Shown: positions 16,234 to 56,140 of the stretch, piece by piece
Layout: each line of letters opens with the position of its first letter
How positions within the stretch are numbered: position 1 is the first letter of the stretch
Position numbers and translations under genes: made by a program
The notes under the pieces: model-generated
Told to the model about the DNA's origin: nothing
The model's input: the letters and a program-made list of their open reading frames with translations, nothing else
The model's database searches: none
Source of the DNA: Rhodohalobacter barkolensis
GTDB lineage: Bacteria > Bacteroidota > Rhodothermia > Balneolales > Balneolaceae
Reading direction: 5' to 3'
Length of the DNA: 64,000 nucleotides
Assembly (NCBI RefSeq): GCF_002834295.1
Contig: NZ_PISP01000001.1
Location: 558,001 to 622,000, forward strand

Positions 16234-17183
16234 GACGCTGTAAAATCCGGTAGGTGTTGAGAGGTCTTGGAATTGACCTGCAAGCGTCCGGCAGGACCTG
16301 GCAGCGTCGATAATGCAAATTTGTTCATCAATGGTCAGATTTTTGGAATACATCATTCCGTAGGAATATCCTGGTTTTAGAAAATCGTGGAATATGAAAG
16401 TTTCGCTCCGTAGGTGCGTCCTTAATCAATCTGAAAAATTTTATCAGATGGTCAGTAAATTTAAACAGGAGGCTCCGCTGGAGCCTGATCATGACACGGT
16501 TATGCATTTCTATAAACAGGTAACTCCTGCCGGAGTAAGTCTGACTCAGAAATGAGAATGAAAATTTTGGAGATGCCATTAATTGAGATCTTCATCTACG
16601 GATCAGGCTATTCGTTGCACGATCTTCTCAGCGTGACTCTGCGAAATCATCTGCGCAACTCTGCGAGAAACCCATATCTTGATTTTTCATCGACGCTGTC
16701 AAATCCGGTGGGTGTTGACAGGTCTTGGAATAGACCTGTAAGCGTCCGTCAGGACCTGGCAGCGTCGATAATGCAAATTTGTTCATCAATAGTCAGATTT
16801 TTTGGAATACATTCATTCCGTAGGAATATGCTGGTTTTAGATAACCGTGAGCCAAGTTGCAATCGCTCCATAGGAGCGTCCTCCTAACACGTGATGTGTC
16901 GTTTGAAATGAAATCACACCAAGGAGGCTCCAACGGAGCCTTGTAATGGTATGGGTTGTTTCTTTTCTATAAACAGGTAACTCCTGCCGGAGTAAGTCTG
17001 ACTCAGAAATGAGAATGAAATTTTTGGAGATGCCATTAATTGAGATCTTCATCTACGGATCAGGCTATATGTTGCACGATCTTCTCAGCGTGACTCTGCG
17101 AAATCATCTGCGCTACTCTGCGAGAAAACCATATCTCAATTATCATCGACGCTGTCAAATCCGGTAGGTGTTGACAGGTCTTT
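16234..17183. repeat. Tandem 457-base repeat, two copies plus start of a third, made of palindromes
   Basis: Units begin with GACGCTGT-AAATCCGGTRGG at 16234, 16692 and 17148 (periods 458 and 456); the third is cut after about 36 bases by the AraC gene. Each unit has the same order of modules: a folded GACGCTG...CAGCGTC boundary, ATTCCGTAGGAAT (16355, 16815), a CGCTCC..GGNGCG palindrome (16404, 16864), GGCTCC..GGAGCC (16471, 16926), then TCTATAAACAG plus ACTCCTGCCGGAGT (16523, 16980), and a conserved tail with CTGCGAAATCATCTGCGC. The two copies differ in palindrome arms and centres but stay paired. Frames inside it are not protein-like. Confidence 0.92.
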
Positions 17184-55345: not shown

Positions 55346-55414
55346 TTTACGAATTGATTTAGAATTGCTTGTTTGAGTGGAATTAAACGATAATTAGAAA
55401 TGGATCATTCTGAT

Positions 55415-55435
55415 AGCCACAGAAGCACGGAATAC
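55415..55435. repeat. Inverted 21-base repeat upstream of nei
   Basis: AGCCACAGAAGCACGGAATA and one more base; exact inverse of 54502-54522. A related 19-base copy at 55960-55978 is followed by its own imperfect inverse (TTCCGTG...TTCCGTGGC, 55989-56015), forming a long hairpin. Confidence 0.8.
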
Positions 55436-55504
55436 GATGAATTTACTTTTCGCGGTGATAAATCCCGCGCTCGTTTGTAAAACCCATGAATGGCTTCTAT
55501 TGTA

Positions 55505-55550
55505 AATAGACCTGTCAGCGTTCAATGAACCTGACAGCGTCCAATATTCT
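55505..55550. repeat. CTGTCAGCGT / CTGACAGCGT repeat pair
   Basis: GACCTGTCAGCGTTCA and AACCTGACAGCGTCCA are 18 bases apart. These are the words of the repeats at 10066-10310 and of the unit boundary at 16234, 16692 and 17148. Confidence 0.7.
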
Positions 55551-55600
55551 CACAGAGTGATGTCTTTTATTGCTTCCGTAACAAGTTAAAGTTTAGTTTC

Positions 55601-55775
55601 AACTCCGGAGGGGTATTCTGTTTATAGCATTTAATACGAAATATTGTAAAAGCTCCATAGGAGCTTCCTGTTACGGTGAACGAAATGATAAACTCCAAAC
55701 TAAAAGAACACTCCCACGGAGTGATAACCTTCTTTCATCCGTCCACCTATAAACAGAATATTCCTACGGAATGTG
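55601..55775. repeat. Array of variable-arm palindromes with CTATAAACAG box
   Basis: In order: CTCCGGAG with the inverted box CTGTTTATAG (55602-55627), AAGCTCCATAGGAGCTT (55650-55666), CACTCCCACGGAGTG (55709-55723), and CTATAAACAG followed by ATTCCTACGGAAT (55747-55771). The family matches the palindromes of the 16.2-17.2 kb repeat. Confidence 0.8.
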
Positions 55776-56140
55776 GTGAATTCATAAGAGTTTGCCACCA
55801 AGGCACAATGACACGAAGCATAACGAAGAGATGAAGTATAAAAATGCCCGATAAGGGGCTTCATATGCGAGCCTGCCTGCGCTGAAGCTTTGGAAGACAG
55901 GCCGGTCATTCATGGCCGGTAAAGAGTTGTAGAAAACGGAATGTTTTCTTAATTCTAAAAGCCACAGAAGCACGGAATTCATTGAAGCTTCCGTGCGGTT
56001 CTGTGTTTCCGTGGCAATAGAATTTACTTCTTTTATTGAGGCCGTATTACAAATCATATTACCGACATTCACATTTATACCAGCTTTACAAATTCTAAAC
56101 AAATCGGAACCTCTGAAGTAAGTTTTGTTGTTCTGCGGAT
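55776..56140. other. Remaining intergenic sequence before the CrtI-like gene
   Basis: Contains the third CCACAGAAGCACGG copy and its hairpin (55960-56020). The rest shows no gene; small frames on the minus strand lie across repeats and are not convincing. Confidence 0.6.

Follow-up and report, generated by a model that had tools for sequence, protein, structure and literature searches.

Divergent pairs of word-plus-hairpin units in Rhodohalobacter barkolensis are probable REP/REPIN-like partners of a subclass 1.2 Y1 transposase

Short intergenic hairpins with a conserved 5' word are known from the REPtron, in which REP, BIME and REPIN sequences accompany a TnpA_REP (RAYT) enzyme. There, the hairpins form inverted pairs of two related types, the Y1 gene is bracketed, and each transposase has one family (PMC6006769, PMC8266576). 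Those TnpA_REP enzymes that were examined in vitro cut at CT dinucleotides (PMC8266576). Quentin et al. 2018 (PMC6006769) described TnpA_Y1 subclass 1.2, which is marked by the signature Y---Q--HH, the HUH motif DH[IV]H, a WQ signature and a specific C-terminal domain. In their Table 1 the REP entry for this subclass is 'no', and they state that subclass 1.2 does not share IS properties.

The window analysed here is a 64-kb stretch of the R. barkolensis genome, in which an earlier note had reported a constant box before a palindrome at four places. We found all four exact CTATAAACAG boxes (16510, 16967 and 55747 on the plus strand, 55618-55627 on the minus strand), each followed after 3 nt by a short hairpin. 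Two extra units carry a diverged box, CTAAAACCAG, at 16371 and 16831, so that CTATAAACAG or its diverged form lies 3 nt ahead of a short hairpin in six window units. These form three divergent pairs (16355-16536, 16815-16993 and 55602-55772) with the layout hairpin A - box - hairpin B ... hairpin B' - box' - hairpin A', hairpin B lying upstream of every box, mostly by 22-25 nt. The features are as follows.

16355..16536, no strand: pair 1, whole (sequence and alignment)
16355-16367, minus: pair 1, hairpin A
16371-16380, minus: pair 1, box CTAAAACCAG
16404-16418, minus: pair 1, hairpin B
16470-16486, plus: pair 1, hairpin B
16510-16519, plus: pair 1, box
16523-16536, plus: pair 1, hairpin A
16815..16993, no strand: pair 2, tandem duplicate of pair 1
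16815-16827, minus: pair 2, hairpin A
16831-16840, minus: pair 2, box
16864-16878, minus: pair 2, hairpin B
16925-16941, plus: pair 2, hairpin B
16967-16976, plus: pair 2, box
16980-16993, plus: pair 2, hairpin A
55602..55772, no strand: pair 3, divergent and REPIN-like, 171 bp (DNA homology to other copies stops at 55599 and 55772)
55602..55614, minus: pair 3, hairpin A of the ACTCC type, one stem mismatch (sequence)
55618..55627, minus: pair 3, box CTATAAACAG (motif search)
55651..55665, minus: pair 3, hairpin B of the AGCTCC type (sequence and alignment)
55709..55723, plus: pair 3, hairpin B of the CACTCC type (sequence)
55747..55756, plus: pair 3, box CTATAAACAG (motif search)
55760..55772, plus: pair 3, hairpin A of the ATTCC type (sequence)

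Pairs 1 and 2, with boxes 16510 and 16967, are parts of a 457-bp tandem duplication (96% identical); these two boxes are therefore not independent, and the four exact boxes represent fewer than four independent events. When folded as single strands, both tested pairs outperform each of 200 shuffled versions (z -6.6 and -4.1), a result that does not separate local hairpins from one long hairpin because one prediction pairs both arms together. A second palindromic repeat family, of the CAGCGTC / GACGCTG type, adjoins the pairs at window positions 16689-16769, 17142-17182 and 55509-55541.

Taken within the window, the boxes could be thought to reflect chance, a short AT-rich word falling near common palindromes. 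With one mismatch allowed, their number (7 against 3.95 expected) is unremarkable alone and two of the four exact copies are one duplication; it is the link to hairpins that stands out. A genome-wide word search, which had been proposed as a check, confirmed this link. The exact 10-mer CTATAAACAG occurred 28 times, compared with 8 for the reversed word, and 15 of the 28, with contexts read by eye, were directly followed by a TCC..GGA hairpin, indicating that the excess over background is hairpin-linked. A covariance model found 31 intergenic units dispersed in the 3.6-Mb genome; it was built from 21 units, whose sequences match by construction, and the structure of CM R1 spans hairpin B only. 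The genome was examined by searches and in 20 stretches of 20 kb. Settings of the box-hairpin scans were varied as the pattern emerged (words 9 or 10 nt long, between 1 and 3 mismatches, differing gap limits); formal controls accompany them only from the 80-locus word scan, with its four other words, onwards.

The palindromes behind the box had been taken as interchangeable, and this idea had to be rejected. Each intact pair examined in this genome and in the congener G009 joined one ATTCC arm to one ACTCC arm (14 of 14; p ~6e-5 against equal odds, with independence overstated, as several are duplicates). The 14 take in window pairs 1 and 3, added by hand, and leave out three short non-pair matches. 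The palindromes are therefore fixed partners and not swappable cassettes: within the genus, the hairpins belong to set partner types, which combine into a heterotypic inverted pair. Pairs measure 171-179 bp, and a longer variant 234-235 bp. Between genomes the hairpins differ, and the word too differs between transposase clades. At L229 (G009:C35:11200-13500) several divergent units lie in a row, and the 234-235 bp variant has an extra hairpin.

Comparison with empty sites in relatives, another of the proposed checks, yielded sites without the pair in congeners but not the exact insertion junctions. Pair 3 sits between a Fpg/Nei-family gene and an oxidoreductase gene, and is absent from the syntenic interval in G009 and G021, where the aligned parts lie 224 bp and 301 bp apart, compared with 658 bp here. 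The block absent from the congeners is longer than the pair itself. In the case of G009 it comprises ~545 bp and is bounded here by a 35-nt direct repeat (86%) at 55407-55441 and 55952-55986. Because the missing block exceeds the pair and is bounded by a repeat, what is seen is presence and absence, not exact insertion. At a second site, L025, the pair is likewise absent in G021:C52.

The earlier note had also advised a search for a Y1 transposase gene. The genome contains 17 matches to Y1_Tnp (PF01797), and one of these genes, L035 (G000:C2:488413-488862, outside the window), is bracketed by the window's unit family, with direct copies of the unit on both sides. In the L035 gene, on the minus strand, a 5-bp duplication near 1854 seems to shift the frame close to the start. 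Judged by its sequence, the transposase is a TnpA_Y1 of subclass 1.2 and not a canonical RAYT, an assignment made because it carries the Y---Q--HH and WQ signature given by Quentin et al. 2018. Y114, Q118, H121, H122, W94 and Q95 are invariant in 8 aligned own-genome proteins, and Y---Q--HH occurs in 110 of 119 full-length matches. The HUH motif of L035 is NHAH, compared with DH[IV]H in subclass 1.2, and in the own-genome alignment the Y motif is followed by about 30 conserved residues, a candidate for the specific C-terminal domain.

Gene bracketing extends to other members of the genus. Units flank subclass-1.2 genes on both sides at G009:C203, G009:C83 and G005:C18, and adjoin a gene or remnant at G035:C49, G026:C514 and G011:C103. 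In a quick protein tree L035 and the three proteins from the doubly flanked loci fall in one clade (98% SH-aLRT), which also holds Mucilaginibacter and Terrimonas proteins; other own-genome paralogues stand apart. Units are present in 11 of the 28 genomes of the genus. No unit was found in G003, G008 and G012 despite other subclass-1.2 genes there, which shows that the link between unit and gene is family-specific. No adjacent transposase gene was found in the genomes of some unit-bearing congeners. Among 244 genomes of the class, 11 have at least three distinct general-pattern sites, and 10 of these 11 match the transposase profile, compared with 86 of 244 overall (Fisher p 1.6e-4, a value that ignores relatedness and uses a cut of three set after the table had been seen). 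G015 has general-pattern sites, yet no match to the transposase profile. In the R. barkolensis genome, Y1 genes or remnants at L029, L030, L031, L032, L034, L040 and L041 are flanked by their own hairpin-bearing direct repeats, with different words (CTACCCATG at L031, CTAGGATGT at L032, CTACGGATA at L040). BLAST against a 464-kb genome sample returned few dispersed copies of the other paralogues' flanks, so dispersal is not claimed for these families.

One scan gave 80 related loci from Bacteroidota, Verrucomicrobiota, Poribacteria, Acidobacteriota, Thermodesulfobacteriota and others. At 53 of the 80, CTATAAACA (at most one mismatch) occurs together with a hairpin no farther than 700 bp from the transposase gene; outside ORFs the density of such sites is 2.66 per kb near the gene and 0.47 per kb farther off. 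The other 27 loci lack CTATAAACA, and some have other CTA words; words found in this group include CTACAAAGA, CTATTAACG and CTATAATTA. Independently of any word, a direct repeat common to both gene flanks (score at least 34) was detected for 29 of 63 genes compared with 7 of 237 shifted controls, and not every one of these 29 repeats contains a hairpin. Across 109 genes, CTA peaks 13 nt ahead of hairpins: it occupies this position in 15.7% at loci with the word and 9.0% at loci without it, against about 1% at most other offsets. In segments 1.5-3.5 kb from the gene the value is 6.9%, which we tentatively read as dispersed copies. A gap of 4 nt between word and hairpin is the commonest, loops mostly have 3 nt, and the spacing of sites on the same strand has its peak at 46-53 nt. 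At L073 (Desulfonema magnum), ten tandem word-plus-hairpin copies follow the gene at intervals of about 50 nt. Across the 80 loci there were 143 CTATAAACA-plus-hairpin sites, compared with 1-11 for the four other words; reversed-pattern controls gave 0-2 sites on each strand of a genome, and the enrichment of CTA is confined to essentially a single offset. These results leave chance proximity of word and palindrome with next to no credibility.

The boxes follow an orientation rule. The nearest ones point away from the gene by 29:4 upstream and 31:9 downstream, and under a generic CTA rule the counts facing away are 53:7 upstream and 52:16 downstream; the nearest boxes of L035 violate the rule. 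Boxes bracketing a gene have the divergent arrangement also seen in the gene-less pair. If the units were transcription terminators or mRNA-stabilising hairpins, placed beside genes by chance, their intergenic position would be natural and hairpins would often lie directly downstream of genes, as they do. However, such elements would not be expected to have a fixed word, CTA at exactly -13, a tandem spacing of 46-53 nt or divergent order upstream as well as downstream, and we consider this explanation very unlikely. The word label clusters on the TnpA tree of 109 proteins: it requires 23 changes, compared with a shuffled mean of 36.3 and with 0 of 500 shuffles as low, a result to which near relatives contribute. 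At L090 (Pedobacter changchengzhani), a direct repeat of about 507 bp occurs on either side of the transposase gene.

A serious rival, which shares much of the evidence, is that the units derive from an IS200-like element as miniature forms without the gene (MITE or PATE-like), having lost tnpA and being moved passively by the full element. A gene enclosed by the divergent frame that also characterises the gene-less pair would fit such an origin. Furthermore, NCBIfam names the protein an IS200/IS605 transposase, its REP_Tyr_transpos score of 27-31 bits is below the cut-off of 80, and the closest solved structures are IS200/IS605 transposases. However, the own-genome genes that were aligned are divergent paralogues present singly, with 29-47% identity to L035, unlike the near-identical multi-copy gene typical of IS200/IS605; G005:C21 has two equally scoring gene copies, so this argument may not hold everywhere. 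A single gene can be flanked by many units and tandem arrays, and the two ends of IS200/IS605 elements are not inverted repeats of each other. In addition, the survey found subclass 1.2 to lack IS properties (PMC6006769). On balance we regard an IS200-like origin as unlikely.

The reading that we favour, with a probability of about 0.75, is that the units are REP/REPIN-like partner elements of a Y1/HUH subclass-1.2 TnpA. The core of the unit consists of CTATAAACA, about 4 nt and a hairpin whose stem is 5-7 bp long and whose loop usually measures 3 nt. Within the genus, the word is preceded by another hairpin at a distance of 22-25 nt, and two divergent units make an entity of about 175 bp. We infer that the hairpins fold while the locus is single-stranded and that TnpA binds, reading word and hairpin together, then cleaves the strand near the CTA that lies 13 nt ahead of the hairpin, and rejoins the ends; units or pairs would thereby be copied or moved to other intergenic places. 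By analogy with the CT cutting of TnpA_REP, CTA is an attractive candidate cleavage site. Pairing with a guide sequence as in IS608, through the 4 nt before the hairpin, was considered and dropped: those 4 nt vary and the word is constant.

It is an evenly balanced question whether subclass-1.2 TnpA constitutes a separate REPtron type across several phyla, with a clade-specific CTA-initial word at a constant distance of 13 nt from the short hairpin that follows, divergent pairs that are either empty or contain the transposase gene between them, and each paralogue reading its own word. The data suggest that the units may be the partner elements missing from a transposase lineage surveyed as having none. 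If they are its substrate, a gap in the TnpA_Y1 classification, a subclass with no IS or REP partner, would be closed. The fixed word-hairpin distance and paralogue-specific words would then give a small HUH nuclease a DNA recognition code that can be tested. Such a partnership would also account for a hairpin repeat class recurring in Bacteroidota and other genomes.

The literature searched, with subscription papers and preprints outside its scope, returned nothing relevant for the word or for subclass-1.2 REPs, and the units are best read as a novel variant of the REP/RAYT kind for which we found no earlier description. Among known systems, TIRtrons (TIRYT; PMC3733652) resemble them in having Y1 genes between inverted repeats and small dispersed families, some self-complementary; the shared motif described there is GGGGWSAS, and the section consulted mentions no CTA word or 13-nt rule. 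IS200/IS605 (TnpA_IS200, subclass 1.1) has a related Y1/HUH protein and subterminal hairpins, whereas the units here are divergently inverted, with many gene-less copies and a low gene copy number, and the transposase has a C-terminal extension and the Y---Q--HH signature. The REP/RAYT-like reading of the earlier note holds well for the word-hairpin combination and the Y1 transposase, but not for hairpins as exchanged cassettes, nor for the type of enzyme: REPtrons use a REP-associated TnpA subclass, while this one is a class 1 enzyme of subclass 1.2, for which no REP is listed. The units are not canonical REPs, because the GT[AG]G at the 5' hairpin foot is absent, the preceding 4 nt varying (TTTG, GGAT, TATC, GGTC and others), and because the protein falls under the NCBIfam REP-transposase cut-off; their word, unlike that of REPtrons, lies 13 nt before the hairpin. 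As in the REPtron, a dispersed hairpin family has members on both sides of the transposase gene, and as in REPINs, two inverted units make up one entity of 171-179 bp with the outer hairpins as its ends.
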